Positions 12,038 to 26,844 of a stretch of DNA of 29,514 nt are shown one piece after another. The position numbers were made by a program, and so were the translations under genes. Each line of letters opens with the position of its first letter. The first letter of the stretch is position 1. Origin of the DNA: an uncultured Oxalobacteraceae bacterium (GTDB taxonomy: Bacteria; Pseudomonadota; Gammaproteobacteria; Burkholderiales; Burkholderiaceae); NCBI GenBank assembly GCA_946480015.1, contig CAMLIL010000074.1, positions 1-29,514 on the forward strand, given 5' to 3'. The notes under the pieces are model-generated. The model worked only from the letters and a program-made list of their open reading frames with translations. It ran no database searches and had not been told where the DNA came from.

Positions 12038-13339
12038 ATGGAACACGTTTCACACGGCGCGCTCGCGCCGGGCCAGCCACTGGCCGACGCGCAGGCCAAC
12101 AACACCGCCCCCCTGGTCATCATCACGCTGCTGTTCTTCATGTGGGGCCTGCTCACCTCCATGAACGACGTGCTGATTCCTCACCTGAAGGCGGTCTACA
12201 CGCTCACGTATGTCCAGGCGATGCTGGTCCAGTTCTGCTTTTTCGGCGCCTATGCCATCGTTTCGCTGCCGGCCGGGATGCTGATCAAGCGGATCGGCTA
12301 CAAGGCCGGCGCCGTCACCGGCCTGGTGATCGCCGCCGCGGGCTGCGCACTGTTCTATCCGGCCTCGGTCAGCGGCTATGCCGTGTTCCTGCTGGCCTTC
12401 TTCGTTCTCGCGGGCGGCATCACCATCCTGCAGGTGGCGGCCAATCCGTTCGTGACGGTTCTCGGCCCGGCCGCCACCGCCTCGAGCCGCCTGACCCTGA
12501 CCCAGGCCTTCAATTCGCTCGGCACCACGATCGCGCCCTGGCTGGGCGGCATGCTGATTTTGTCCGGGGTGACGCTGGGCGCGACCGAACTGGCCGCGCT
12601 GCCCGCGGCCGACGCCATCGCCTACAAGGCCAGGGAAGCGGCCATGGTGCAGGGGCCGTATCTGGCCCTGGCCGGCGCGCTGCTGTCGATCGCGGTGCTG
12701 TTCGCGCTCGTCAAGCTGCCCAGGATCAGCCATGGCGGCGAGGCGGCCGGCAGCATCGGCACCTCGGCGCTGTCGCATCGCCATCTGCTGCTCGGCACCA
12801 TCGGCATCTTCCTGTACGTGGGCGGTGAAGTCAGTATCGGCAGCTTCCTGATCAATTACATCGGCGAGCCGAACATCGCCGGGCTGGCGCATGGCGCCGC
12901 CGCCAAGTATGTGGCTTACTACTGGGGCGGGGCCATGATCGGCCGCTTTATCGGCTTCGGCGTGATGCGCTTCGTCAGCCCGGGCAAGGCGCTGGCCACC
13001 AACGCCGCCGTGTCGATCGCGCTGATCCTGACCGCCACCTTCGGCCACGGACCTGTGGCGATGTGGGCGCTGATCGCGGTTGGCCTGTTCAACTCCATCA
13101 TGTTCCCGACCATTTTCTCCATGGCGCTGCACAAGCTGGGCGCGCAGACCGGCCAAGGGTCCGGCATCCTGTGCATGGCCATCGTCGGCGGCGCCATCGT
13201 GCCGTTCCTGCAGGGCTTCATGGCCGACCGCATCGGCCTGCAGATCTCCTTCCTGATCCCGGCGGCCTGCTACATCTTCATCCTGTACTTTGGCTTGAAG
13301 TACGCCAACATGTACCAGGGCGAGCGTATCGCGCTCTGA
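12038..13339 (+). CDS. gluP: GluP/FucP-type MFS sugar importer
   Basis: A 433-residue inner-membrane protein with about twelve hydrophobic segments. The opening LLFFMWGLLTSMNDVLIPHLKAVYTLTYVQAMLVQFCFFGAYAIVSLPAG block is diagnostic of the glucose/galactose (FucP-related) transporter family, as is QVAANPFVTVLGP with LTLTQAFNSLGTTIAPWLGG. The C-terminal half has YVGGEVSIGSFLINY, NSIMFPTIFSMALHKLG and GSGILCMAIVGGAIVPFLQG. These carriers are proton symporters of hexoses; mannose released by the mannanase and mannosidase encoded downstream is the likely cargo here. ATG 12038 is chosen for its strong AAGGAG 8 bases upstream; an in-frame GTG at 11993 has none. It is the first gene of the four-gene rightward operon. 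Confidence 0.9.
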   Translation: MEHVSHGALAPGQPLADAQANNTAPLVIITLLFFMWGLLTSMNDVLIPHLKAVYTLTYVQAMLVQFCFFGAYAIVSLPAGMLIKRIGYKAGAVTGLVIAAAGCALFYPASVSGYAVFLLAFFVLAGGITILQVAANPFVTVLGPAATASSRLTLTQAFNSLGTTIAPWLGGMLILSGVTLGATELAALPAADAIAYKAREAAMVQGPYLALAGALLSIAVLFALVKLPRISHGGEAAGSIGTSALSHRHLLLGTIGIFLYVGGEVSIGSFLINYIGEPNIAGLAHGAAAKYVAYYWGGAMIGRFIGFGVMRFVSPGKALATNAAVSIALILTATFGHGPVAMWALIAVGLFNSIMFPTIFSMALHKLGAQTGQGSGILCMAIVGGAIVPFLQGFMADRIGLQISFLIPAACYIFILYFGLKYANMYQGERIAL

Positions 13340-13371
13340 TTCCACCACCATCCTCGTCAAAGGGTTTGAGC

Positions 13372-14694
13372 ATGAATTTCGTACACAAGCTGGGCGCGAG
13401 CCTGGTGATGGCGGCCGTCTGCGGCCTGGCGCAGGCCGCCCCTGCGGACAAGGACAGCTTCGTCAGCGTCAAGGACACCCATTTCGCGCGCAAGGGCCAG
13501 TCGTATTACATCGCCGGCGCCAATTTCTGGTATGGCGGCTACCTGGGCGCCACCAGCGCCGTCGGCGACCGCGCCCGGCTGGTCAAGGAACTCGACAACA
13601 TGAAGGCGATCGGCATCAATAATCTGCGCGTGCTGGCGGTGTCCGAGAAGACCGGGATGAAAAGCGCGGTGCGTCCCGCCACCACCAGCGCGCCCGGCAA
13701 ATACGATGAAAACCTGCTGGCGGGGATGGACTTTTTGCTCGCCGAACTGGCCAGGCGCGACATGACGGTGGTGATCTACCTGAACAACTTCTGGCAGTGG
13801 TCGGGCGGCTTCACCCAGTACATGAACTGGTTCGCCGGCACCCCGGCGCTGGACCCGAACGTCACCGGCGACTACAACGCCTTCATGACCAATTCGGCGC
13901 GCTTCTACAGCAACCAGGCGGCCCAGGACGAATACCGCAATGTGATCAAGACCATCGTCAACCGCGTCAACACCGTCAGCGGCGTGGCCTACCGCGACGA
14001 TCCGACCATCATGTCCTGGCAGCTGGCCAACGAGCCGCGCCCCGGCAACGACCACGCCAGCGATGCCGAGAAGGCCATTTACACCAGGTGGATCGACGCC
14101 ACCGCCAAATACATCCACGATCTCGACAAAAATCACCTGGTCAGCAGCGGCAGCGAAGGGCTGGCCGGTTCCGCCCAGGATGCCAGGCTGTTCCTGGCGG
14201 CGCACTCGAGCCGCCATGTCGACTACCTGACCTACCACCTGTGGCCGAAAAACTGGAGCTGGTTCGATTCCAGAAAGCCGGCCGCGACCTGGGACGGCGC
14301 CATCGCCAAGAGCCGCGACTATCTGAACTCGCACATCGAGCTGGCCAAACAGTTGAACAAGCCGATCGTGCTTGAAGAATTCGGCCTGGACCGCGACGGT
14401 CCGTCGTTCGACCGCCGCGCCACCACCAAGATCCGCGACCGCTTCTACGGCGAGATCTTCAAGCTGGTGCAGACACGCGCGGCCAAGGGCGACCCGATCG
14501 CCGGCTGGAACTTCTGGGCCTGGGGCGGCATGGGCCGCGCCGCCAACCCCGACTACTGGTGGAAGGAAGGGAACGACTTCGTCGGCGATCCGCCGCAGGA
14601 AGAGCAGGGCCTGTATTCGGTATTCGACTCCGACGTGCCCTCGCTGGTCCTGATCAAGGAGCACGCCGACCAGCTGCATCAACTTCAACGCTGA
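13372..14694 (+). CDS. Secreted endo-beta-1,4-mannanase, glycoside hydrolase family 5
   Basis: A 440-residue protein with a signal peptide (MNFVHKLGASLVMAAVCGLAQA, cleaved before APAD), hence periplasmic or extracellular. The catalytic barrel starts at GQSYYIAGANFWYGGYLG, which resembles GH5 subfamily 7 mannanases (FYVNGTNYWYG-like opening). The acid/base is Glu221 in SWQLANEPRPG and the nucleophile is Glu336 in IVLEEFGLDRDG; WNFWAWGG near the end is also typical. It would cut internal beta-1,4-mannosidic bonds of mannan, glucomannan or galactomannan. No carbohydrate-binding module is seen. An AAAGGG 7 bases before ATG 13372 is a good ribosome binding site, and the gene follows the importer by 32 bp. 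Confidence 0.92.
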   Translation: MNFVHKLGASLVMAAVCGLAQAAPADKDSFVSVKDTHFARKGQSYYIAGANFWYGGYLGATSAVGDRARLVKELDNMKAIGINNLRVLAVSEKTGMKSAVRPATTSAPGKYDENLLAGMDFLLAELARRDMTVVIYLNNFWQWSGGFTQYMNWFAGTPALDPNVTGDYNAFMTNSARFYSNQAAQDEYRNVIKTIVNRVNTVSGVAYRDDPTIMSWQLANEPRPGNDHASDAEKAIYTRWIDATAKYIHDLDKNHLVSSGSEGLAGSAQDARLFLAAHSSRHVDYLTYHLWPKNWSWFDSRKPAATWDGAIAKSRDYLNSHIELAKQLNKPIVLEEFGLDRDGPSFDRRATTKIRDRFYGEIFKLVQTRAAKGDPIAGWNFWAWGGMGRAANPDYWWKEGNDFVGDPPQEEQGLYSVFDSDVPSLVLIKEHADQLHQLQR

Positions 14695-14703
14695 CACGAC
14701 ATC

Positions 14704-17700
14704 ATGCATATCCGTATCACCTCGCTTGTCCTGGCCGTTGTGGCTGCGCACGGTGCGCAGGCCGCGGCCTGGGGGCCGTTCAACGCCGAATTTCCGGCCG
14801 CCGCCGACGGGCTGCTGAAAAAGCCGGCCAAGGGCGACCTGTTCGCCAATGCCGATGGCTTCAGCATCGGCGGCTGGTTCAAGCCGAGCGAGCTGTCGAA
14901 CGCGCCGACCCTGCTGGCCGGGATCGAGGGCCGCGGCTATTTGTGCAGCATCGGCGCCGCATTCGGGTTTTGCCTGGACGGCGCCACGGTGCCGAGCACC
15001 AGCGCGCTGGCGCCCGGGGTATGGACCCATCTTGCGGCCGCTTATGATGGCCGCCGCCTGACCCTGTACGCCAACGGCCGCGTGGTGGCGCAGCGCGACA
15101 TCGCCATCCAGGGCACTGCGGGCGCCCAGCTCAGCATCGGACCGCGCGGCAAGAGCGCCGGCGCTTTCGCTGGCCGCGTGGCCGGCCTCACCGTGGCCGG
15201 CAACGCCATCGATGCGCAGGCGGCGGCGCGCATGGCCTCGGCCGCGCCCAACGATGCGCTGATCAATTTCGAGAACGGCAGCCCGTCGTGGCCGCTGCAA
15301 ACCCGCCAGATGGCCGGGCAGCTGGTGCCGCAGGATGCGTGGACGCTGCCGACATCGAACACGCCGCCGTCGGCCCCGGTTGCCAGGGCGCCGTATGCCG
15401 GGCCGGCGCTGGAAAAGAGCGGCCCGAACGAATGGACGATCCGCGCCTGGTCGCTCCAGGCCGCGCCGCAGGTCAAGGGCGCCGAGCGCCAGATCGCCAG
15501 CGCCGGTTTTGATGCCAGCGGCTGGTACAAGGCCACCGTCCCGGGCACCGTCCTGACCACGCTGGTCGACCGTGGCGTGTATCCGGACCCTGCCCATGGG
15601 CTGAACAATCTGGTCATCCCCGAGAGCCTGAACAGGCAGGATTACTGGTATCGCAGCAGCTTCGATACGCCGGCCGCTTACCGCCCCGGACAGCACCTGT
15701 TCGTCACCTTCAAGGGCATCAACTACGCCGCGCAGGTGTGGATCAATGGCCGCCGCCTCGGCGACATGAAGGGCGCCTTCATCCGCGGCACCTTCGACAT
15801 CAGTCCCTTCCTCGCTGCCAAAGGCCGGAACGTCATCGCGGTCAAAGTGTCGCCGCCGCCGCATCCAGGCTTGCCGCAGGAGGAATCGCTCAGCGCCGGC
15901 GCCGGCGAAAACGGCGGCGTGCTGGCGCAGGATGGCCCGACCTTTATCGCCTCCGAAGGCTGGGACTGGATTCCCTCCGTGCGCGACCGCAATACCGGCA
16001 TGTGGCAGGACGTGGTGCTGCGCGCCACCGGCGACGTGCGCCTGGGCGATACCCACGTCGTCACCGCGCTGACCAAGGCCGACAACAGCGAGGCCGAGAT
16101 CGGCATCGACGTGCCGCTGACGAACCTGTCCGGCAAAACCATACGCACCACCGTGCGCGCCACCATCACCGACCGCGCCGGCATCCTGCAACCGGTCGTC
16201 GTCAGCAAGACCGTGGCGCTCGCGCCGGGCGCGCACAGTGTCAGTTTCACGGCGCAGCAATTCGCCGCGCTCAAGCTGCGCCAGCCGCGCCTGTGGTGGC
16301 CGAACGGCTACGGCCGCCCCGATATGCACGACGTCAAGGTCGACGTGCTGCAGGGCGGACGGCTGTCGGACCAGGGCAAGACCGGCTTCGGCATCCGCGC
16401 GGTGACGTACGAACTGTCGCTGGTCGACGCCGGCGGCCATCTGCGCCGGGTGGAGGCCGACTTTACCAAGGCGAGCCGGCTGGGCATCAGGATCACCGAC
16501 GCGCGCCACCAAGCGATCCGCAAGGTGGCCGGCAACCAGTGGGCCAGCGGCCTGCGTCCGGAAGCCGAGGGCAGCGCCGCCATCCGGGACCTGGGCGAGA
16601 GCACGCTGACGCCGCATCTGGTCATCAAGGTCAATGGCGTGCGCATCGCGGCGCGCGGCGGCAACTGGGGCATGGACGACTGGCTCAAGCGGGTCCAGCG
16701 CCAGCGCCTGGAGCCGTATTTCCGGCTGCACCGCGACGCCAACGTCAACATCATCCGCAACTGGGTGGGCCAGAACACCGAGGAAGCATTCTTCGAGCTG
16801 GCCGACGAGTACGGCCTGATGGTGCTGAACGACTTCTGGGCCTCGACCCAGGACTACAACATCGAGCCGCAGGATGTCGGCCTGTTCATGGCCAATGCGC
16901 GCGACGTGGTCAAGCGCTTTCGCAATCATCCATCCGTGATCGCCTGGTTCGGCCGTAACGAAGGCGTGCCGCAGCCGGCGCTCAACGAAGCGCTGGAATC
17001 GATGATTTATGAGCTGGACGGCACCCGCTGGTACACCGGCAGCTCGAACCGCATCAACCTGCAGAACAGCGGCCCGTACAACTACCAGGCGCCGGCCACT
17101 TACTTCACCCAGCATGCCAAAGGCTTTTCGGTGGAAGTGGGCGTGCCGTCGATGCCGACTGCGGAAGCGTTCAAGGCGGCCATTCCCGAATCCGAGCGCT
17201 GGCCGATCAGCGACAGCGTGGCCTATCACGACTGGCATCCCGACGGTAACGGCGGCACCGGCCCGTTCATGAATGCGCTCAGGACCGCGTACGGCGAAGC
17301 CAGCTCCTTCGACGACTTCGAGCGCAAGGCCCAGCTGATGAACTACGACATTCACCGCGCGATCTTCGAAGGCATGAATGCCGGCCTGTGGCGCGAGAAC
17401 AGCGGGCGCATGCTATGGATGACGCAGCCGGCGTGGCCGAGCACCATGTGGCAGATTCTCAGCCACGATTACGACACCCACGGCTCCTTTTACGGCGTCA
17501 AGAGCGCCGCCGAGCCGGTGCACGTGCAGCTCAATCTGCCGGACTACCGCGCGATGGTGATCAACAATCCCAACCGTGCGCTGGACAACGCCACCCTGAG
17601 CTACCAGGCCTACGGCATCGATGGCACGCTGCTTGCCTCCAGCAGCAGCACCGTCCATGCCGGCGCGGCCGCAACCTCGGCCCCGGTCGACCTTGGTATC

Positions 17701-18783
17701 GCCGCGCTGCTGGCCAAACAGGGCGTCATGGTGGTCAAGCTGGCGCTCAGACACAGCTGGGGCGGGGTGATTTCGGAGAACGTCTACTGGCCGAGTGCGA
17801 AACCGGAAGGCCAGCAGGGACTGAACGGGCTGGCCACCGTGCCCGTGGGCCTCAGCGTCAGCCGTCACCAGAACGGCAAAGAGGCGCGCCTGAACATCAC
17901 GCTCAGGAACACCGCGCAGGTGCCTGTATTGAACAGCAAGCTCACACTGCTGAAGGAATCGGGCGAGCGCGTGCTGCCGGTGTACTACTCGGATAACTAC
18001 GTGTCGCTCATGCCGGGCGAGAGCAAGACCTTGACCGCCGACTTCCAGGCGCAAGGCCCGCTGACGCTGACTCTGCGCGGCTGGAACGCGGCCGCGCAGT
18101 CGGTCGCGGTGGCCGATCCGGGGCCGGCCGTGTGCGCGACCAATATCGCACCGCGCACCGTGGAGTATCCGTGGATGTCGACCGCGCGCTGGAACAAGAT
18201 GCACGCAGACCAGGTGGCGCGCGCCGCGAAGGGCGGCGTGGATGTGATGTTCGTCGGCGATTCGATCACCGAAGGCTGGCCGCAGCCGATCTGGAATGCC
18301 AGCTTCGGCGCCTTCAGGCCGGGCAACTTCGGCATCGGCGGCGACCACACCGGCAACGTGCTGTGGCGCCTGCAGGACGACCGCATCCGCGCACTCCGGC
18401 CGAAGGTCGTGGTGCTGCTGATCGGCGTGAACAATCTGGGCTTGTGCAATGAAAGCGCGGAGCAGGTTTTCAACGGCATCAAGGCGACGGTTGCGCAGCT
18501 GCGCAAGAACTATCCGCCGGCGCGCATTCTGCTCAACGCCGTGCTGCCGGCCGACGAGAGCCCGCAGGGCGAGCGCCGCAAGAGCATCGCCGCGCTCAAC
18601 AAGATGGTGGCGACGCTGGCCGACGGCAAACAGGTCGTGGTGCACAACTACGGCGCGCTCCTGACGCGCGCGGACGGGGCGATCCCGTCCGACATCATGG
18701 CTGACTTCCTGCACCTGACCCCGAAGGGTTATCAGATCTGGGCCGACGCCATGCGGCCCGATATCCAGCAACTGCTCAAATAA
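14704..18783 (+). CDS. Secreted LamG - GH2 (beta-mannosidase-like) - SGNH esterase fusion protein
   Basis: A 1359-residue protein with a signal peptide (MHIRITSLVLAVVAAHGAQA). Residues about 45-185 form a LamG/concanavalin-like jelly roll (GFSIGGWFKPS, GVWTHLAAAYDGRRLTLYANG). Residues about 240-1130 form a full GH2 enzyme: sugar-binding domain (YWYRSSFD, VWINGRRLGDMKGAF), LWWPNGYG, then a barrel with acid/base Glu753 in WFGRNEG and probable nucleophile Glu811 in FSVEVGVPSMP. The layout resembles the endo-beta-mannosidase/exo-glucosaminidase branch of GH2. Residues about 1150-1355 are an SGNH hydrolase with Ser1187 in VGDSITEGW, GIGGDHTGNV, GVNN, and Asp1334/His1337 in DFLHLTPKG. In this locus it should release mannose from manno-oligosaccharides and strip acetyl groups. 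Exact GH2 specificity is uncertain. It starts 9 bp after the mannanase stop. Confidence 0.88.
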   Translation: MHIRITSLVLAVVAAHGAQAAAWGPFNAEFPAAADGLLKKPAKGDLFANADGFSIGGWFKPSELSNAPTLLAGIEGRGYLCSIGAAFGFCLDGATVPSTSALAPGVWTHLAAAYDGRRLTLYANGRVVAQRDIAIQGTAGAQLSIGPRGKSAGAFAGRVAGLTVAGNAIDAQAAARMASAAPNDALINFENGSPSWPLQTRQMAGQLVPQDAWTLPTSNTPPSAPVARAPYAGPALEKSGPNEWTIRAWSLQAAPQVKGAERQIASAGFDASGWYKATVPGTVLTTLVDRGVYPDPAHGLNNLVIPESLNRQDYWYRSSFDTPAAYRPGQHLFVTFKGINYAAQVWINGRRLGDMKGAFIRGTFDISPFLAAKGRNVIAVKVSPPPHPGLPQEESLSAGAGENGGVLAQDGPTFIASEGWDWIPSVRDRNTGMWQDVVLRATGDVRLGDTHVVTALTKADNSEAEIGIDVPLTNLSGKTIRTTVRATITDRAGILQPVVVSKTVALAPGAHSVSFTAQQFAALKLRQPRLWWPNGYGRPDMHDVKVDVLQGGRLSDQGKTGFGIRAVTYELSLVDAGGHLRRVEADFTKASRLGIRITDARHQAIRKVAGNQWASGLRPEAEGSAAIRDLGESTLTPHLVIKVNGVRIAARGGNWGMDDWLKRVQRQRLEPYFRLHRDANVNIIRNWVGQNTEEAFFELADEYGLMVLNDFWASTQDYNIEPQDVGLFMANARDVVKRFRNHPSVIAWFGRNEGVPQPALNEALESMIYELDGTRWYTGSSNRINLQNSGPYNYQAPATYFTQHAKGFSVEVGVPSMPTAEAFKAAIPESERWPISDSVAYHDWHPDGNGGTGPFMNALRTAYGEASSFDDFERKAQLMNYDIHRAIFEGMNAGLWRENSGRMLWMTQPAWPSTMWQILSHDYDTHGSFYGVKSAAEPVHVQLNLPDYRAMVINNPNRALDNATLSYQAYGIDGTLLASSSSTVHAGAAATSAPVDLGIAALLAKQGVMVVKLALRHSWGGVISENVYWPSAKPEGQQGLNGLATVPVGLSVSRHQNGKEARLNITLRNTAQVPVLNSKLTLLKESGERVLPVYYSDNYVSLMPGESKTLTADFQAQGPLTLTLRGWNAAAQSVAVADPGPAVCATNIAPRTVEYPWMSTARWNKMHADQVARAAKGGVDVMFVGDSITEGWPQPIWNASFGAFRPGNFGIGGDHTGNVLWRLQDDRIRALRPKVVVLLIGVNNLGLCNESAEQVFNGIKATVAQLRKNYPPARILLNAVLPADESPQGERRKSIAALNKMVATLADGKQVVVHNYGALLTRADGAIPSDIMADFLHLTPKGYQIWADAMRPDIQQLLK

Positions 18784-18786
18784 GCC

Positions 18787-19827
18787 ATGAAAACCATCGC
18801 CGCCATCGCCGCCATGCTGGCCGCATCGAGCGCCTTCAGCGCCAGCCAGGTAGCCGCCACCGACAGCCATATCGCCCGCATGGGCAGGCTGGCCGAGCAG
18901 CTTGACGGCGCCGTGCGGATCGCTTATCCGGGCGTGAGCCTGGCCTTCAGCTTTACCGGCAAGACGCTGTCGGTCGACGCCTGGAGCAGCGGCACCAGCA
19001 GCGCCATCGACGTGACGATCGATGGCGGCGAAACGCACCGCATCAGGCTTGGCATGCAGCGCGCCACCTACACGCTGCTGGACGCGCCCACGGCGGGTGC
19101 GCACCGCGTTGAAATCATGCACCCGAACGAGACCTGGCACGGCATCGTCACGCTGGCCGGCTTTGCCACCGACGGCGAACTGGGCGCGCCGCCCACGCTG
19201 CCCGAGCGGCGGATGCTGGTGCTGGGCGACTCCGTCACCTGCGCCGAAGGGGTCAAGCGCGGCACCGGCAAACTCGATCCGAGCTGGAACGACGCGCGTC
19301 ATTCCTACGGCATGCTGGCCGCGCAGGCGCTCGGGGCGCAGGTTCATCTGGTCTGCTACGGCGGGCGTGGGCTGGTGCGCAGCTGGAACAAGCGCACCGA
19401 CGAACACAATCTGCCCGACTTCTACGAGCTGGCCATTCCCGACCCGGCCAACCCGGTGCCCTGGGATCACGAGCGCTACCAGCCGGACCTGATCGTCAGC
19501 GCCATCGGCACCAACGATTTCACGCCCGGCGTACCCGACCGCGAGGCGTATGTGTCGACCTATGTGAAGTTCGTCCGGACGCTGCTGCGCAATCATCCGC
19601 GCGCGCGCATCGTGCTGACCGAAGGGGCGATACTGAACGGCGCGAACAAGGACATCATGCGCTCGTACATCGCCGAAACGGTCACGCGGGTAGGGGACAA
19701 ACGCGTGCGTGCCGTATCCTCTGCTTATTATCCCGGCGATGCCGCCGACGCCCATCCGACCGGCGAACAGCACGCCATGATGGCGCGCGACCTGGTGCCG
19801 CAGCTCAGGCAAACGATGGGCTGGTAA
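18787..19827 (+). CDS. Secreted CE2-type acetylesterase (SGNH), acetyl-mannan esterase candidate
   Basis: A 346-residue protein with a signal peptide (MKTIAAIAAMLAASSAFSA). Residues about 25-135 form a beta-sandwich with IAYPGVSLAFSFTGKTLSVDAWS and GAHRVEIMH, then an SGNH hydrolase domain starts at RRMLVLGDSVTCAEG with nucleophile Ser149. Later blocks are LVCYGGRGLVRSW, LIVSAIGTNDFTPG and DAHPTGEQHAMMA, with Asp321 and His323 as the likely charge relay. The jelly roll plus SGNH order is the carbohydrate esterase family 2 architecture, which removes acetyl groups from xylan, mannan and glucomannan. The gene begins 3 bp after the previous stop with no visible ribosome binding site, so translational coupling is likely. 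It ends the operon at a hairpin. Confidence 0.87.
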   Translation: MKTIAAIAAMLAASSAFSASQVAATDSHIARMGRLAEQLDGAVRIAYPGVSLAFSFTGKTLSVDAWSSGTSSAIDVTIDGGETHRIRLGMQRATYTLLDAPTAGAHRVEIMHPNETWHGIVTLAGFATDGELGAPPTLPERRMLVLGDSVTCAEGVKRGTGKLDPSWNDARHSYGMLAAQALGAQVHLVCYGGRGLVRSWNKRTDEHNLPDFYELAIPDPANPVPWDHERYQPDLIVSAIGTNDFTPGVPDREAYVSTYVKFVRTLLRNHPRARIVLTEGAILNGANKDIMRSYIAETVTRVGDKRVRAVSSAYYPGDAADAHPTGEQHAMMARDLVPQLRQTMGW

Positions 19828-19871: not shown

Positions 19872-20945
19872 TCACAACGATACCGGCAACGCGACCCATT
19901 CGAAGCTTGGCGCCCCGTGCGCCCCGTCCGGGTTGCCGTCGATGGGCAAGTGCATCATCTCGCGGGCCACCGATGTCATGCCATGCATGCCGTTGACAAT
20001 GGCGTCATAGAGCACCGACGGGGTGCCGTTGAACCCCAGCTCCAGCTGCGTCAGCATCAGGCAATACTGGCCGTTAAAGGTATCGTTCAACTTCGCAAGC
20101 TGTGAACCCGGCGGGTAATCCGAGCTTTTTGCATTGCGTTTGATCGGGAACACGGCGGTGTAATCGACGTCGAAACCGTCGCCTGTGGGCGGGTGCCGCG
20201 GATTGTCGTCGCGCCGATAATATCGCCCATGGGCGATTTCATTGAAGCGGAAATAGTGCGCAGCTTCTTCCGGCTGGCCGAAATATTCGGTGTCGCCGTC
20301 GAAAATCGAGTTGCCCGAGGCTTCCCCTTGCTTCTTGATCACGTTCATGGCCTCGATGGCCGATTGCCGCGACACAACGGCAATCGGTTTGCCCCCGCTG
20401 CTCCAGTAATATTGTTCATTGATTTGATGGCGAGGATCGCCGCAAAACACCTCGCTTTCGGGATAATCGGCGCACATCTGTTCCAGCAGCCCAATGATGC
20501 GGTCGTAGAACTGACCCAGCGTGATGCCGGGAATGACCATATTCGGGTTCGCCGCCGGGATGTCCGCCGGCGGGAGCAGACTGGCCGGTATTTCAATTTT
20601 CTTGAACGTCTCGATCGCTTGCGGCGAGAACGCTTCCAGATGGATGTCGAATTCGCGCTCGCGAATGGGACTGCCCTCGAACTCCAGCCTGAGCGGATAG
20701 GCCGGCACGCTCGCGCCGCGCAGGCATACCGTGCCGCCCAGGCTGGAGATCAAATTCCCCACAAGCACCATATGCAGCATTTCCTCGATCGCGACGCTGC
20801 GAATCAAGTTGGCGGCGGTCCGGTTGCCAGGCATTTTGATGCTCAGTAGCGCGGTCAGATAGGGCGGAATGGTGGCAAGCTCCAGCTCCATGGCTTTTTG
20901 CAAAAGCGGCAGCAAGGCCGCTTTTTGTTCCTGCAAACTTCTCAT
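19872..20945 (-). CDS. VioB-related ferritin-like domain protein
   Basis: A 357-residue protein. The N-terminal ferritin-like block is LELATIPPYLTALLSI (about 21-36) followed by LIRSVAIEEMLHMVLVGNLISSLGG (about 47-71), with Glu20/Glu22 and the E-x-x-H pair Glu55/His58 as candidate metal ligands. This is the pattern of the ferritin-like domain found in the iminophenyl-pyruvate dimer synthase VioB (Pfam Ferritin-like, PF12902, from memory). The C-terminal half has EAAHYFRFNEIAHGRYY, giving further E and H residues, and LMLTQLELGFNGTP. Members occur in secondary-metabolite and oxidation clusters; substrates are mostly unknown. The start codon overlaps the stop codon of the GMC gene by 4 bases (ATGA), so the two are translationally coupled. 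It is the last gene of the leftward operon. Cytoplasmic: no signal peptide. Confidence 0.82.
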   Translation of the reverse strand: MRSLQEQKAALLPLLQKAMELELATIPPYLTALLSIKMPGNRTAANLIRSVAIEEMLHMVLVGNLISSLGGTVCLRGASVPAYPLRLEFEGSPIREREFDIHLEAFSPQAIETFKKIEIPASLLPPADIPAANPNMVIPGITLGQFYDRIIGLLEQMCADYPESEVFCGDPRHQINEQYYWSSGGKPIAVVSRQSAIEAMNVIKKQGEASGNSIFDGDTEYFGQPEEAAHYFRFNEIAHGRYYRRDDNPRHPPTGDGFDVDYTAVFPIKRNAKSSDYPPGSQLAKLNDTFNGQYCLMLTQLELGFNGTPSVLYDAIVNGMHGMTSVAREMMHLPIDGNPDGAHGAPSFEWVALPVSL

Positions 20946-22585
20946 GCGGCACTCGCTTTCTTCGTCGTCGTTTGGTGAAGGAGATGGGGAGGACAGCCGG
21001 CCTTGCTCAGATGGTCGCCAAGGCGCAGGGCGAGCGCGGCCACGGTCAAGGTGGGGTTGACCGAGCCCGAGGACGAAAACGCGGCGTTGGAACAGACGTA
21101 GACGTTGTCCACGCCGTGCACTTTCAAGTCCCGGTCGATGACGCCCTGGGATTCATCGGTGCTCATGCGGCATGTGCAGCAGGCATGGTCGGCCCGCCAG
21201 GACACGTAGGGGTTGTCGACCGGCGTGGCCGACATGGTGGTGAAGATCCGGTTGATATGCGCCTGCACCTCGGTGACCCGCTGGTCGAAGCTGTCCGGTT
21301 TGGTAAAGTTCACCGCGGTTTCGACCATGCCCATGCTGTTGATCTTGCCGTAGTTGGACACGCGGTCTTTCCAGTCGCCGACGATTTCGATCTGGCCGAT
21401 CAATTGCAGCTGCTGGGGACCGTCGACATAGCTGTCGATCTCGGCGCGACGATTGCCCGCCTGCATCTTGGCGGCGACATTCACGACGGGGGCAAACGGG
21501 GGATTGCCGATGACAAATTTCCCCTTCGCTTGCTCCTCCACGCTGTCATAGTAGCGCGAGCACAGGGTCGCAAAGCCCATTTCCGGCTGCAGACGCGCGC
21601 GGTTCGAGGCCAGGTTCGCCGAAAAGGCGTAATACGGTTGCGTGATGAGATAGCGGCCGACCAGATCGCGGTCGTTGCCGATGCCATTCTCCCAATGGCT
21701 TGAACGCGAACGTTGCAGCAATTTCGGCGATTCCAGCGTGCCGGCCGCGATAATGACGCGCTCCGCTTCCACCGTCACATCTTGCCCGAGTTCCCGGTCG
21801 TAGAAGACCGCGCCGCTGGCGCGGCGTTTGGCGCTCATGGTGATCTCTTTGACGAAGCAATTGAGCCTGATCTGGAAGTGGGGATAGCTGTTCCATTCCA
21901 CCATGTCGTTCAGGAAGTTATTGGCGGAGTAGCGCGCGCCGAACGGGCAGTACAGGCAGGTGCCGGTGGTCTGGCAGGGCGCGTGGGTCGAGGTGGTCTC
22001 GGTGATGCCATGCCGGGCAATGGGCATGTGGCTGACCGTGATGCCGAGCGCTTCCATCGCGGTCGCCACCGGCTGGTCTTCCAGGCTGAAGGGGAAGGCT
22101 GGAAACGGGTAGGGCGTCGTGCGCGGCACGCTGGCGTCCCTGGAATCGCCCGATACGCCGATATAGTGCTCGGCCTGGCCGTAATACGGTTCGAGCTCGT
22201 CGTAACTGATGGGCCAGTCGATTCCCTGCCCGGTGTTGGAATGGAGCCGGAAGTCTTCCGGCTTGAGCCGGAACGACCAGCCATCCCAATGGATGGTGGT
22301 GCCGCCCAGCGTGAAGACACGCGAACCGCTCAAGCCCATCACCGTCCCGCCAAGGCTGATGTTCTCGCCTTGCTGGCCGCGGGCCGGGTAGTCCTGGTCC
22401 TGGAAGGTGTCGTAGGGCAGCTTGGCGCTGACGACGTAGTCCTGCCACAGGGCCGCATCTTTCATCTTGACGCTGGAGCCTGCTTCCAGCATCAGGATGG
22501 ATGCGCGCGGATCGCGCGCCAGCAGGCGTTGCGCAAGCGCGGCCGCGGCGACGCCGGAGCCGATGATCAGAGTCTCAACTTTCAT
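20942..22585 (-). CDS. GMC-family FAD-dependent oxidoreductase
   Basis: A 547-residue flavoprotein. The FAD-binding Rossmann loop is LIIGSGVAAAALAQRLL (about 6-22) with the distal acidic LMLEAG. GMC family blocks follow: GGTTIHWDGWSFRLKPEDF, DWPISYDELEPYYGQAE, and a cysteine-containing TGTCLYCPFGARYSANNF. The C-terminal GMC block is HACCTCRMSTDESQGVIDRDLKVHGVDNVYVCSNAAFSSSGSVNPTLTVAALALRLGDHL, in which the final Asn of SVNPTLT and the His before CCTCRM are the expected catalytic pair. The usual GTCRMG is CTCRMS here. The family oxidises alcohols or sugars, with either O2 (yielding H2O2) or another acceptor. ATG 22585 begins MKVETLIIG and overlaps the upstream stop by 4 bases. No signal peptide. 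Confidence 0.9.
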   Translation of the reverse strand: MKVETLIIGSGVAAAALAQRLLARDPRASILMLEAGSSVKMKDAALWQDYVVSAKLPYDTFQDQDYPARGQQGENISLGGTVMGLSGSRVFTLGGTTIHWDGWSFRLKPEDFRLHSNTGQGIDWPISYDELEPYYGQAEHYIGVSGDSRDASVPRTTPYPFPAFPFSLEDQPVATAMEALGITVSHMPIARHGITETTSTHAPCQTTGTCLYCPFGARYSANNFLNDMVEWNSYPHFQIRLNCFVKEITMSAKRRASGAVFYDRELGQDVTVEAERVIIAAGTLESPKLLQRSRSSHWENGIGNDRDLVGRYLITQPYYAFSANLASNRARLQPEMGFATLCSRYYDSVEEQAKGKFVIGNPPFAPVVNVAAKMQAGNRRAEIDSYVDGPQQLQLIGQIEIVGDWKDRVSNYGKINSMGMVETAVNFTKPDSFDQRVTEVQAHINRIFTTMSATPVDNPYVSWRADHACCTCRMSTDESQGVIDRDLKVHGVDNVYVCSNAAFSSSGSVNPTLTVAALALRLGDHLSKAGCPPHLLHQTTTKKASAA

Positions 22586-23055
22586 GATGGTGTCTCGCAA
22601 GTTCTATAGGGAACGGGGTGTCCGGGGATGAAGGCGCCGCCGATATAGCCGCAATAATTGCGTGCGCCCCAGGCCTTGAATCCGCCCAGGGCCACCTGCC
22701 AGGCCACGAACTCGTTGGACACATAGTGGTGCGTCACGGCCAGCGCCGATGCCGGCGGGCTGGCCGTGGCGCCGGGATCGGTGAACAGGAAAGCGTAGGC
22801 GGCCTCTTCCCCCCGCGCCGCGATCAACTGGTCCATGACCTCCTTGGCCAGGATGTAATAGTCGTGATAGATCGGGTACAGGCTGATCCGGTTCTGCATG
22901 AATGTGTAGAGTTGCGATTTATACGGCGCCGGGTCATCCATGTTTTTCCAGAATTTGCCGATGTGGACGAATATCTGCCACATCGAGGCAAACACGTCGT
23001 CCCGGATGGGCGGCAGGCTGGCGCTTAAAGGGTGTTTGTCGGTTGCTTGGTACAT
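22582..23055 (-). CDS. 157-residue protein of unknown function, possible GMC partner subunit
   Basis: I do not recognise the family. The protein has no signal peptide or clear membrane segment. It is rich in aromatic residues, with helical-looking blocks DDVFASMWQIFVHIGKFWKNM and LYPIYHDYYILAKEVMDQLIAARGEEAAYAFLF. A proline/alanine linker and VTHHYVSNEFVAWQVALGGFKAWGARNYCGYIGGAFIPG follow, ending PYRTCETPS. Size, position directly before the GMC gene and the 4-base ATGA overlap with it recall small partner subunits of membrane or soluble GMC dehydrogenases (gluconate 2-dehydrogenase subunit 3 type), but this is inference. A GGAG 8 bases before ATG 23055 is a good ribosome binding site. It follows the peroxidase-glycyl-radical fusion gene by 36 bp. 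Confidence 0.75.
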   Translation of the reverse strand: MYQATDKHPLSASLPPIRDDVFASMWQIFVHIGKFWKNMDDPAPYKSQLYTFMQNRISLYPIYHDYYILAKEVMDQLIAARGEEAAYAFLFTDPGATASPPASALAVTHHYVSNEFVAWQVALGGFKAWGARNYCGYIGGAFIPGHPVPYRTCETPS

Positions 23056-23091: not shown

Positions 23092-26000
23092 TCAGGGCGT
23101 GAAGTATTGGCGCCGCTGGTGCTGCTCCTGGTGCATCGGGAACATGCTCGAATAGAATTCGGTCCAGCCCCCCATCCGCACCCGCACCAGGTTGTAGCGC
23201 TCGGGATCGCCCACCGCGGCCTGGTAGGTCGCCAGGTCGGCGCACGTTAATGTGATGAGGTTGGAGCCGGTTTCACTGCGCGCATAGGCTTTCACGAACT
23301 TCTTTAAATCCTCCAGCGGGAAATCCTCGGCGATGTTCATGTCCACCGGAGAGGCGTTGGACAGCCCCTTGTCGATCGCATCGATCTGCCAGCTTTTCAG
23401 CGACTGGTAGATATTGCGGAAAGCCGGAGCGGCCGGCAGGTCTTGCGGGGCTGGCGAGGGCGAAAGGTCCGAGGCGATCGGCATGCCGTTGCGGCGGCCG
23501 TCGGCGCTCGCGCCGCAAGGCAGGCCATCGCCGACGTAACCCTCGAAGGTGCCGACCCCGGGCGTGACCACGAATTCGAAGGCGCCAAAGCGCGCGGCGA
23601 TCTGTTCGAGCTGGCTGCGCAAGGGCGGGGCCGGCTTGCGGATCACGCTGACGCACAGGCCCACCATTTTTTCCATCATCCAGCTTCCCACCGCGTCGAC
23701 TTCGGGATCGCCGCTGCCCCATTTCGGCAGCGCCAGCGCCACCTCGCGCAATTGCTGGTAGCGGCGCCCGCGCTCCATGGCGTCGGCCGGGCCGAGCAGC
23801 TGGCTCTGATAGGGTTCGACCATGGTGTATCCCCAGTCGTTGATCAGGCAATCGAGCAGTTCCGGCAAGGTGGTGACGGCGGTGGCTGGGTCGTACACCA
23901 TTTTCTTGATGGCATACAGAGAATCGATGGCGTTGGACGCGCCCACGCACAGCGGGGCCATGATGTGGAACAGGGCGCCGCCGTTGGTCAGGTCGCGTCC
24001 GCTGGCCGCGCATCCCTCGATGACCGCCGACAGCAGCGGGCTGGGGCAAATGTCGGCCAGGTTGCCGTAGGCGCCGAGCATCACGCTGTAGGCTTGCACC
24101 ACGTTCCATTCCAGCTGCTTCAGAAATAGCGCTTGCAGCATCTCGAAACTGTGGATTGCCGATGCCTGCGGCGTGCGGATGGTCTGCTTCTGGCCACGCA
24201 GGTAGACCGGGCCGGCCGTGCCGTAGCTGGCGCCTTCGTTCAAGGCCTGTTCCAGCGCACTCATCGGGGCGACATTGAAGAAGGTGAATTCCGAGGCGCC
24301 GGCGAACATCGGTTCATAGCAGCCATCGGCCGCATAGTTGCGCGACCAGGCCGGGGTGACCTCCTTGCCCGAATCGAGCAGGGCGCCGCACAGCTTGTCG
24401 TCGTTGTACAGGATCGGATGGGCGCCGCCGGCCAGGATGCACTTGGCGGCCTCGTCCAGATAGGCGTCCGGCATGTCCTTGTAGACCCGCAGCGACAGCG
24501 TGGGGGCGTTCACTGGAATGCGCCGCGCCGCCTTCAGGCACAGCATCGTGACCGGGTTCGCGCCGCCGACAGGCTCGGCGTCGTCGGTGGGCAGGTAGCC
24601 GCCCACCGTGACCTGCTGCACCCACTGGTTGATGCCGCCGCCCTGGGGGAAGTTGCCGCCCAGTCCGAACACCGAGGTGGTGCCATAGGTACGGTAGTCG
24701 ACGATATTGGCGCGGTTGACGAAGGCGTTTTCCCCGATCTTGAGCCACAGGCAGTCGATGATTTCCTGCGCCCGTTCCGGCGCCACCGTATCGTGTTCCA
24801 GCAACGGCCACAGGATCTGGTCGAGGCGGCCGATCGGGGTCAGCTCGCCGACCAGGTGCAGACAGCAGTGGAAGGCGTAGACCAGTTGCACGCCATCCTG
24901 GAAACTGCTTGGCCTGTCGGTGCGCAGGCGGCGCAGGCGGGCCGCGACGTCACGCATATTGGCCGCGTCGGCGGGATCGGCCGCGGCGTCGCCGCAGCGC
25001 TCGGCCAGCATTGCCCAGTTGTCGAGATAGCCCTGCACGCCTTCCAGCGAATAGATCGCCGACTGGTAGAAATCGGCGGCGCCGGACTGCGCGCTCTGCG
25101 TGCGGCTGGCGTTCAGCTGGTCCAGCAGCTTGCCCAGGCCTTCGCGCACCACCAGCGCCAGGTCGGGCACCACGTGCCCCATCGCCGACCATTCATTCAA
25201 CTGGGCCTTGAGCCAGGCGGCGACGGTTTCTTCCTCGTCCAGGTAAGGTACCACTTCCTTGCCTCGTCCCAGCGTGAAGTCGGGAATCACGCCGACAATC
25301 AATTCCTTCGGGTCGATCCGCAGCAGGTCGTTGTGGCGCGCGATGGACGAGTCCGGGCTGGAAAGCAGGCCGGCCAGGGTCTTTTTGTTCGCCATGCCCT
25401 TGCGCAAGGCCACGCTGGATGTCAGCAGATGTTTTTCATCGGCATCCAGCAATTGATTGAGGTGGGGCAGGCGCGGGAATGGTTTGCGTTTCAGCCAGCC
25501 ATCGTTCCAATGCGAGAAGGTCCGTTCCGCCAGGTACAGCAGGCGCGCGCTGGGGGGATCGCCGGCCACATAGCGTCCGGCGGCCATCTGGTGGAGGTAG
25601 TCGGTGCCGTTGTAGAACATATAGCCGTTGGCGCTGCGCACCTGCCAGTGCTGGTCTTCGGTGACGTCCTGGTCGCGCGCGCCGGCGACCCGCAGTTCGG
25701 CCGCGCACGGGACGTACCAGTACGAGCCGGCCACGCCCTGCACCACGCTCATCAACCGGTCCGCCGGGCGGTTCTTGTCCGGCCCCATCATGTGCTGGAT
25801 GATTTTTTCGAAGCGGGCTTGGTCGTTGCAAAAGCCGACGAACATCAATCCCTTTTCGCGCGCGGCGCTGCCGTCCACGGCGCCGAACGGCAGCGCCTGG
25901 CGCAGCAGTTTCAGGTTGTCGCCGTTCTCGTCCAACACATGCACGCGGCGGATGTGGGCGTTCACGTCGCCGTGCGGCAAGGCCATGCCTTCCGGGTTGC

Positions 26001-26592
26001 GGCCGATCATCGCGTCTTGCGCGTCGGGCAACATGGTGCCGATGCTGTTCCAGTCGAACAGGAATTTCTGGGTGAAGCCATAGCAGGCGCCGCGATATTC
26101 GCCATCGAGCAAAATGTCGGCCGCCAGGCCGATCGGGTCGTTCGGGTTGGTGATGCCATCCAGATAGCGGCCAGCCATGATTTTTCCGTCGGGGCGCTTG
26201 CCCAGGGGCTGGATGTCCAGCTGCGCGGCCAGCGCCTCGAGGGCGGGACGCACGCTGTCCATCAGTTCGGCCGCCGTGGCCGGATCGTCGCTCTTGAGGT
26301 ACAGCAGGACATCGCCGCCGCTGTCGCGCAGCTTCGGCGACTCGTCCAGCACCTTGCGCGAGACGGGAATCTCGCGTCCTTGCCAGGCGCCCCACAACGC
26401 GGGGGCGAAGGCCGCCACCAGGCCGCTGGGCACTGGGGATGCCTGCGCCCGCGCAGCGAGCGTGCGGACGATGTCGAGCACGGCTTGCTCGCTGGCATGA
26501 TCGTGGTGACGCAAAGTGAGCGTGGCGATTTGTCCAAACACTGCGCGCTGGAGCAAACCGGCCTGGGCGCCGCGAACGAGCTCAAAATACAT
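23092..26592 (-). CDS. Fusion of DyP-type haem peroxidase and glycyl-radical enzyme (PFL-like)
   Basis: A 1166-residue protein with no signal peptide. Residues about 1-320 are a DyP-type peroxidase: RYLDGITNPNDP with Asp145 in the GxxDG position (first Gly is Arg142), probable proximal haem ligand His213 in NAHIRRVH, and probable distal Arg231 in LLRQALPFG. A linker leads to a full-length glycyl-radical enzyme from about residue 400: DPKELIVG (434), PSSFQDGVQLVYAFHCC, GENAFVNRANIVDYRTYG, then the thiyl Cys758 with Glu760 in AADGCYEPM (the C-x-E pattern of non-PFL members). The glycyl loop is RMGGW with Gly1142, 24 residues before the C-terminus, where pyruvate formate-lyase has RVSGY. The reading frame is continuous across the junction. 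AAGGGA precedes ATG 26592 by 8 bases. It is the first gene of the four-gene leftward operon. Substrate unknown. Confidence 0.88.
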   Translation of the reverse strand: MYFELVRGAQAGLLQRAVFGQIATLTLRHHDHASEQAVLDIVRTLAARAQASPVPSGLVAAFAPALWGAWQGREIPVSRKVLDESPKLRDSGGDVLLYLKSDDPATAAELMDSVRPALEALAAQLDIQPLGKRPDGKIMAGRYLDGITNPNDPIGLAADILLDGEYRGACYGFTQKFLFDWNSIGTMLPDAQDAMIGRNPEGMALPHGDVNAHIRRVHVLDENGDNLKLLRQALPFGAVDGSAAREKGLMFVGFCNDQARFEKIIQHMMGPDKNRPADRLMSVVQGVAGSYWYVPCAAELRVAGARDQDVTEDQHWQVRSANGYMFYNGTDYLHQMAAGRYVAGDPPSARLLYLAERTFSHWNDGWLKRKPFPRLPHLNQLLDADEKHLLTSSVALRKGMANKKTLAGLLSSPDSSIARHNDLLRIDPKELIVGVIPDFTLGRGKEVVPYLDEEETVAAWLKAQLNEWSAMGHVVPDLALVVREGLGKLLDQLNASRTQSAQSGAADFYQSAIYSLEGVQGYLDNWAMLAERCGDAAADPADAANMRDVAARLRRLRTDRPSSFQDGVQLVYAFHCCLHLVGELTPIGRLDQILWPLLEHDTVAPERAQEIIDCLWLKIGENAFVNRANIVDYRTYGTTSVFGLGGNFPQGGGINQWVQQVTVGGYLPTDDAEPVGGANPVTMLCLKAARRIPVNAPTLSLRVYKDMPDAYLDEAAKCILAGGAHPILYNDDKLCGALLDSGKEVTPAWSRNYAADGCYEPMFAGASEFTFFNVAPMSALEQALNEGASYGTAGPVYLRGQKQTIRTPQASAIHSFEMLQALFLKQLEWNVVQAYSVMLGAYGNLADICPSPLLSAVIEGCAASGRDLTNGGALFHIMAPLCVGASNAIDSLYAIKKMVYDPATAVTTLPELLDCLINDWGYTMVEPYQSQLLGPADAMERGRRYQQLREVALALPKWGSGDPEVDAVGSWMMEKMVGLCVSVIRKPAPPLRSQLEQIAARFGAFEFVVTPGVGTFEGYVGDGLPCGASADGRRNGMPIASDLSPSPAPQDLPAAPAFRNIYQSLKSWQIDAIDKGLSNASPVDMNIAEDFPLEDLKKFVKAYARSETGSNLITLTCADLATYQAAVGDPERYNLVRVRMGGWTEFYSSMFPMHQEQHQRRQYFTP

Positions 26593-26647
26593 GGAAATTC
26601 CCTTCTCTCTGACAAGCGCACCGGGGCGCCGATTGGTCATGGATATT

Positions 26648-26679: not shown

Positions 26680-26844
26680 GGCAAGCAGCGCGGTGATTCG
26701 CACCGCCGTGACGGCGCGAACCATGCGCGAAATACGCACCGGCTAAGGATATAAATTGGCTGGAGCGCCCGGGCGCGGTATGGCCATATAAAAAAACCGG
26801 GCCATCTGTTTCAGGGCTTTTTATTCAATTAAATGGAAAGTGGC

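Follow-up and report, generated by a model that had tools for sequence, protein, structure and literature searches.

The stretch analysed here (the window, 29,514 nucleotides of contig CAMLIL010000074.1 from an uncultured Oxalobacteraceae bacterium) carries a gene whose single product joins a DyP-type haem peroxidase to a PFL-like glycyl-radical enzyme (GRE). An uninterrupted frame of 1166 codons had been described at this position by an initial annotation that gave no strand; we confirm the frame and place it on the minus strand, the plus strand over the same span being interrupted by stops. The frame stays open upstream as far as a GTG at 26739, and the ATG at 26592 was taken as the start since the aligned homologues start at or near that codon. 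Counted from this ATG, the numbering previously given to Asp145, His213, Arg231, Cys758, Glu760 and Gly1142 is correct, and Gly1142 does lie 24 residues before the C-terminus. Conservation is given below for two alignments: A2, of 96 rows (the window protein with 95 of the 120 listed homologues, after leaving out P0002, which is the window protein itself, near-duplicates and fragments), and A3, of 30 fusions and 1 unfused GRE.

23092..26592, minus strand: gene for the DyP-type haem peroxidase / PFL-like glycyl-radical fusion, 1166 amino acids, from profiles, homologues and predicted structure
26600..26610, minus strand: probable ribosome-binding site AGAGAGAAGGG, upstream of the ATG at 26592
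25687..26574, minus strand: B-type DyP haem-peroxidase domain, residues 7-302, from the predicted structure
26158..26160, minus strand: Asp145, the distal aspartate of the DyP site (93 of the 96 rows of A2 have Asp and 3 have Glu)
25954..25956, minus strand: His213, expected proximal haem ligand (96/96 in A2, 30/30 fusions in A3)
25900..25902, minus strand: Arg231, distal Arg of the DyP site (96/96 in A2, 30/30 fusions in A3)
25576..25686, minus strand: inter-domain junction, residues 303-339, rich in aromatic residues
23095..25575, minus strand: PFL-like glycyl-radical domain, residues 340-1166, from the predicted structure
24313..24321, minus strand: Cys758-x-Glu760 active-site loop (DGCYE; C758 and E760 each 96/96 in A2)
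23164..23178, minus strand: glycyl-radical loop Arg1139-Met-Gly-Gly1142-Trp1143 (R1139, G1141, G1142 and W1143 each 96/96 in A2)

The domain searches support the claimed pairing and both of its halves, each far above cut-off. In the DyP half, Pfam Dyp_perox_C (PF20628) matches residues 143-297 with an E value of 1.1e-20 and NCBIfam TIGR01413 reaches 106.4 bits against a cut-off of 100.5, while in the radical half Pfam PFL-like (PF02901) covers residues 461-978 (E 8.4e-98, 329 bits against a cut-off of 24.3) and several NCBIfam GRE families match below their cut-offs. With Pfam Gly_radical (PF01228), no match to the window protein was reported at E <= 1. Among its relatives the same profile scores 14.6 bits in L015 and 18.6 bits in L036, and 22.7 bits, against a cut-off of 22.2, in a piece of the Hymenobacter enzyme discussed below. 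The glycyl loop of the window protein reads RVRMGGW, as opposed to RVxGY, and pairwise alignments reach it as weak second stretches (10.9 bits with glycerol dehydratase, 9.8 bits with 1,2-propanediol dehydratase). In the structure prediction of the fusion, which has a predicted template-modelling score (pTM) of 0.90, residues 7-302 superpose on B-type DyPs and the GRE barrel, residues 340-1166, on glycyl-radical diol dehydratases. Such a pTM, together with the fact that residues 340-1166 make up only 0.71 of the length, points to a fixed packing of the two domains in the model. Judged by profiles and model, the protein is thus a combination of a DyP fold and a glycyl-radical fold.

This pairing had been put forward as one for which no described enzyme was known, a claim that does not stand. 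A DyP-PFL fusion was reported in 2016 in the fungus Chaetomium cochliodes; according to that paper it was also detected in other prokaryotic and eukaryotic genomes, and it is described there as a hypothetical protein of elusive significance (PMC5041501). The fusion is therefore not unpublished. The fungal protein, Ccochdyprx, has the same order as that of the window, a type B DyP followed by PFL, and the authors grouped the fungal sequences with the fused bacterial ones in a single clade and inferred transfer between proteobacteria and ascomycetes (PMC5041501). The accessible portion of that paper gives no mechanism and no activase test of bacterial genomes, and our search of the open-licence literature, outside which subscription papers and preprints lie, found no study of a purified fusion.

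The fusion is widespread. A protein search with the window fusion gave 134 homologues at E <= 1e-3, and both Pfam domains were present in 116 of the 120 listed, down to 45% identity. These include Betaproteobacteria (Janthinobacterium, Collimonas, Massilia, Chromobacterium and Andreprevotia), Archangium, a Bacteroidota metagenome-assembled genome (MAG), a Thermoanaerobaculia MAG and many Ascomycota, among them lichen fungi and Chaetomium. A scan of 84,980 species, with one genome per species and two peptide patterns, yielded 14 loci, of which 13, Pseudomonas cichorii included, belong to the fusion family (a lower bound) and one is an unfused GRE (L014). The genome of Archangium violaceum that holds one of these fusions (L008) has a second, divergent DyP-GRE paralogue of 1318 amino acids (L015:4307-8260). 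A search with this paralogue gave 208 homologues, with both domains in all 120 listed; these come from Myxococcota, Actinomycetota, Hahella, Xenorhabdus, a Reyranella MAG, a cyanobacterial MAG and the fern Ceratopteris richardii, and the listed proteins of this second clade are mostly longer than 1200 amino acids. The fern protein (P0199, 1317 amino acids) is annotated on a contig of 186 Mb and groups on a tree with a eukaryotic transcript (P0184), making it a candidate for transfer into plants. By profile search, the family turned up in 11 of 195 genomes from the phylum of Archangium and in 4 of 399 from the order of Janthinobacterium, two of the latter being already known and one holding only a C-terminal piece. 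So patchy a spread would fit a gene that is often transferred.

On a tree of GRE domains from 30 fusions and 17 unfused GREs (L017 and 16 of 120 listed; the Hymenobacter GRE was not included), the 30 fusions formed one group with support of 100/99, next to unfused GREs with a GGW loop. Two outgroup rows sit on very long branches, and the topology is compatible with, and no proof of, a single origin. The same architecture is found across many related and distant genomes, and we rejected an assembly artefact or a chance fusion given the many homologues across phyla and the one clade on the tree.

Three further members of the family are worth recording. The fusion gene of a Kordia MAG (L011:9950-13560) has internal stops and frame breaks, due either to sequencing error or to its being a pseudogene. 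An Asticcacaulis plasmid (L038:7815-11795, NZ_CP084912.1) carries a fusion directly after a gene for a SUMF1/EgtB-type non-haem iron protein. Finally, a relative of 36% identity (L036:5001-8816) lies on a 33-kb contig that is classed as viral in IMG/VR and is probably cellular or plasmid DNA.

Conservation extends to both catalytic sites and to the region between them. Beyond the invariant residues listed above, DGC[YFW]E is present in all 240 listed homologues and RxR[MTV]GGW in 232 of them (231 with Met or Thr and one, P0157, with Val), the remaining eight ending without the loop region. Among the aromatic residues at or near the junction, W316 is found in 96/96, Y327 in 95/96 and Y332 in 92/96 rows of A2. 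In A3, W362 and Y332 are present in 30/30 fusions and Y293 in 29/30, with W366 in 31/31 and Y327 in 30/31 rows.

The nearest unfused enzymes offer a useful contrast. The unfused GRE L017 has 533 relatives; the 120 listed all carry PF02901 only and none has a DyP domain. They include Bacteroides, Parabacteroides, Vibrio quintilis, a Fibromonadaceae MAG and a Chlorobiaceae MAG. They resemble the fusions in being the closest group on the GRE tree, in sharing the GGW loop and, in the printed rows, in having [DG]GCWE. They differ in having no DyP domain among those listed and, in the one such enzyme whose neighbourhood was examined (L014/L017), in having an activase-like gene as the next gene upstream; this enzyme, from a Peptostreptococcaceae MAG, has a RIGGW loop (L017:3693-7283).

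A plasmid of Hymenobacter cellulosilyticus (NZ_CP095048.1) shows another arrangement. At L037:6058-9397 it encodes a GRE of the fusion family without the N-terminal DyP domain, annotated in two pieces that share 41% and 39% identity with residues 354-880 and 883-1166 of the window protein, and 11 bp after it comes a stand-alone DyP gene of a different type (PF04261 and part of PF20628). This one record suggests that a GRE and a DyP have been kept together without fusion and in reverse order, possibly as an independent pairing of the two.

Known GREs such as glycerol and 1,2-propanediol dehydratases and the choline lyase CutC are stand-alone proteins that depend on a radical-SAM enzyme for activation. 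We surveyed 25 host genomes in which the fusion family was matched (G001-G013, ten further Myxococcota, G413 and G443), which are those of relatives and not the window's own. A PFL-type activase (TIGR02493 or TIGR02494) passed the cut-off in three of them, G001, G002 and G443, and all three also hold an ordinary PFL near which the activase lies. In the 22 hosts where the fusion is the sole PFL-like gene, neither of these two families passed its cut-off. Restricted to full-length fusions, the count is 17 of 19 hosts without a PFL-type activase over cut-off, after removing G011 (interrupted frame), G012 (contig end) and G077, G104, G105 and G443 (incomplete, or split over two frames). On TIGR02494 the best score in the 22 hosts is 45.0 bits (G104), against 127-359 bits for activases near PFL-like genes in G001, G002, G443 and G014, the PFL activases of G001 and G002 scoring 128 and 127 bits.

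The first 13 genomes (G001-G013) were searched with five activase families: TIGR02493, TIGR02494, TIGR02491, TIGR02495 and TIGR04041. TIGR02493 passed only in G001 and G002 (Andreprevotia), and TIGR02494, TIGR02491 and TIGR04041 in none of the 13. TIGR02495 (NrdG2) passed in G002, G003 and G006, and within the 13 NrdD was detected in these same three genomes alone. No family of the five passed in 9 of the 13 genomes, among which are five named isolates: Paracidovorax anthurii, Azohydromonas australica, Pseudomonas cichorii, Archangium violaceum and Collimonas humicola. Below threshold, identified matches proved to be NrdG2 (G003 and G006), QueE (G007) and an AmmeMemoRadiSam enzyme (G008). In 14 control genomes TIGR02493 and TIGR02494 each passed in three, and PF02901 was found in three, namely E. 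coli, Bacteroides ihuae and Lactococcus lactis.

The initial annotation had suggested that the haem domain might form the radical, or else protect or repair the radical domain. We put forward, as an evenly balanced proposal, that the haem domain uses H2O2 to make the glycyl or thiyl radical of the PFL-like domain, likely in place of a radical-SAM activase. Haem would bind at His213, and H2O2 would react there with the help of Asp145 and Arg231 to give Compound I. The hole might then travel through conserved aromatics of the junction, for which Tyr293, Tyr327, Tyr332, Trp362 and Trp366 are candidates, and end on Cys758, on Gly1142 or on both. The Cys radical could finally take a hydrogen from the substrate, in the way that diol dehydratases and choline lyase do. 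Indirect support comes from three sides: most hosts are without a visible activase, both catalytic sites are conserved, and in a B-type DyP, KpDyP, tyrosyl radicals form in a manner dependent on the catalytic Asp and Arg (PMC8154254). Since the GRE catalytic residues are kept in genomes without a visible activase, the haem domain would be an economical source of the radical. In the fungus, H2O2 induces the gene 3-fold and peroxyacetic acid 18.5-fold (PMC5041501), a response that would suit a protein driven by peroxide as well as one that guards against it. As far as our searches show, the distribution of activases among the hosts and the unfused GRE-DyP pair of Hymenobacter are new arguments for self-activation driven by haem.

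Several observations weigh against this proposal. In the predicted model, residues 1141-1146 and 1148-1150 of the glycyl loop have a predicted local distance difference test score (pLDDT) <50. Residue 145 is Asp in 11 and Glu in 19 of the 30 fusions of A3, Glu being the state of the second clade. The Hymenobacter pair has broken frames, with the apparent rest of the haem domain in another frame, which reflects either a faulty record or broken genes. The tyrosine that bears the radical in KpDyP, Y247, is said to be limited to enterobacterial B-type DyPs (PMC8154254), and by a by-eye alignment the window protein seems to have no tyrosine at that place (GLMF).

The activase survey has its own weak points. 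Twelve of the 25 hosts were searched with TIGR02493 and TIGR02494 only. The host genomes are not independent and come without completeness values, four of the first 13 (L010-L013) being MAGs. Cut-offs are an unsafe dividing line because the activase-like gene beside L017 itself falls below that of TIGR02494 (169.0 bits against 174.35), scoring 63.3 bits on TIGR02493. Hosts and activases are less well separated on TIGR02493, where matches of 61-67 bits, below threshold, occur in G008, G077, G079, G104, G146 and G413, and only that of G008 has been identified. An activase that is divergent or drawn from another radical-SAM family can escape such profiles. Lastly, a putative PFL activase is reported in C. 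cochliodes, both glycyl-radical components being taken as present there (PMC5041501).

These last points lead to the first alternative, which we consider unlikely: that a radical-SAM enzyme encoded elsewhere in the genome, divergent or borrowed (NrdG2, an AmmeMemoRadiSam enzyme or a fungal enzyme like a PFL activase), installs the radical and the haem domain is otherwise employed. The putative fungal activase is in its favour, as are NrdG2 over cut-off in three hosts, the AmmeMemoRadiSam enzyme of G008 and the matches of 62-67 bits in G077, G079, G104, G146 and G413. Yet no tested activase family is common to the hosts over cut-off, 9 of 13 having none of the five and 22 of 25 neither PFL-type family; NrdG2 exceeds its cut-off, among the first 13, only in hosts that have NrdD; and no radical-SAM domain was reported in 20 flanking open frames from nine loci.

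A second alternative, to which we give still less credence, sees in the haem domain a guard that destroys H2O2 or organic peroxides able to quench a radical whose source is separate. The peroxide induction of the fungal gene and the intact DyP site would suit it, and oxygen is known to cleave PFL, which is then repaired by YfiD (PMC8683613). The guard, however, requires a radical source that is not visible in most host genomes searched, and it needs no covalent link, whereas the fused form makes up a single widespread clade and is modelled with confidence over both domains.

Very improbable, in our judgement, is that the PFL-like half has no radical chemistry and serves the peroxidase as a scaffold or substrate-binding domain, since, against the unreported PF01228 match, the low-confidence prediction of the glycyl loop and the apparent lack of conservation of His281 and Asp447 of glycerol dehydratase, the cysteine and glycyl motifs are kept in 240/240 and 232/240 listed homologues and C758, E760, R1139 and G1142 in 96/96 rows each, which is more than a scaffold would require.

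Several features set the fusion apart from the closest known systems. Compared with diol dehydratases and CutC (PF02901), the window protein has RMGGW for RVxGY, is about 22-24% identical over the aligned part and bears a fused DyP; His281, Ser282 and Asp447 of glycerol dehydratase have no apparent counterpart in the pairwise alignment. KpDyP and YfeX, both B-type DyPs, are stand-alone proteins to which the window protein is about 20% identical. In class I ribonucleotide reductase an oxygen-derived metal centre drives a distant cysteine radical through a chain of Tyr and Trp residues, and by analogy the relation of the fusion to anaerobic GREs might be likened to that of the oxygen-dependent class I to the class III reductase. 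The likeness would lie in the manner of working, a related barrel and a cysteine radical with a metal-centre radical source suited to air. The class I enzyme differs in drawing its radical from an unrelated source, a di-iron centre housed in a second subunit, and in having a barrel that no longer contains the glycyl loop. The spare-part protein YfiD is another answer to oxygen damage of a GRE (PMC8683613); it swaps in for the broken loop and the radical-SAM activase is still required.

The possible bearing of this proposal is broad. GREs perform C-O, C-N, C-C and C-S cleavage and are held to be enzymes of anaerobes; their glycyl radical is cut by oxygen and the radical-SAM activase has an oxygen-sensitive iron-sulphur cluster. 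Perhaps, and here we stay somewhat on the doubtful side, the fusions are a new aerobic class of GREs that need no radical-SAM activase, a built-in haem peroxidase converting H2O2 into the protein radical. They would be a second route of the thiyl-radical barrel into air, parallel to class I ribonucleotide reductase, that has been carried into fungi and at least one fern. If this is true, peroxide-driven self-activation would break the rule that confines GREs to anaerobes, would show how an anaerobic enzyme family was refitted for aerobic life and would let chemists use glycyl-radical catalysis with neither an activase nor an anaerobic box. Even with a guard role only, the fusions are a widespread and conserved family of bacteria, fungi and a fern.

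In the window, the fusion gene is followed on the same strand by three genes:

22582..23055, minus strand: protein of 157 amino acids without Pfam or NCBIfam match, next gene after the fusion
20942..22585, minus strand: GMC oxidoreductase (PF05199, PF00732), overlapping the preceding gene
19872..20945, minus strand: ferritin-like PF12902 protein of 357 amino acids (E 3.9e-49), overlapping the preceding gene

The three genes (19872-23055) look like an operon. The GMC enzyme, if an oxidase, could be a putative source of H2O2, and the PF12902 protein is weakly like VioB (E 0.016). The three genes gave no tblastn match at E 1e-4 in the 14 loci L001-L014, the best match at E 10 having a value of 0.016. 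Among open frames called mechanically in 15 stretches, a procedure that may overlook genes (the L008 fusion was not listed by it), no family apart from the fusion was common to more than three. The Pfam scan of the 20 flanking open frames likewise showed no common partner. A conserved gene cluster was therefore rejected, the downstream genes not being found beside other fusions, and for the same reason the operon of the window is no basis for assigning a function. The fusion behaves as a free-standing gene.

The rest of the window includes carbohydrate genes on the plus strand at 13063-19827, which encode a GH5-like cellulase, a GH2 protein of 1359 amino acids bearing a glucosaminidase-type Ig domain and a GDSL domain, and a CE2 esterase. 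A tRNA-Gly gene (anticodon ccc) at 17-90 is the sole Rfam match above the gathering score in the window.

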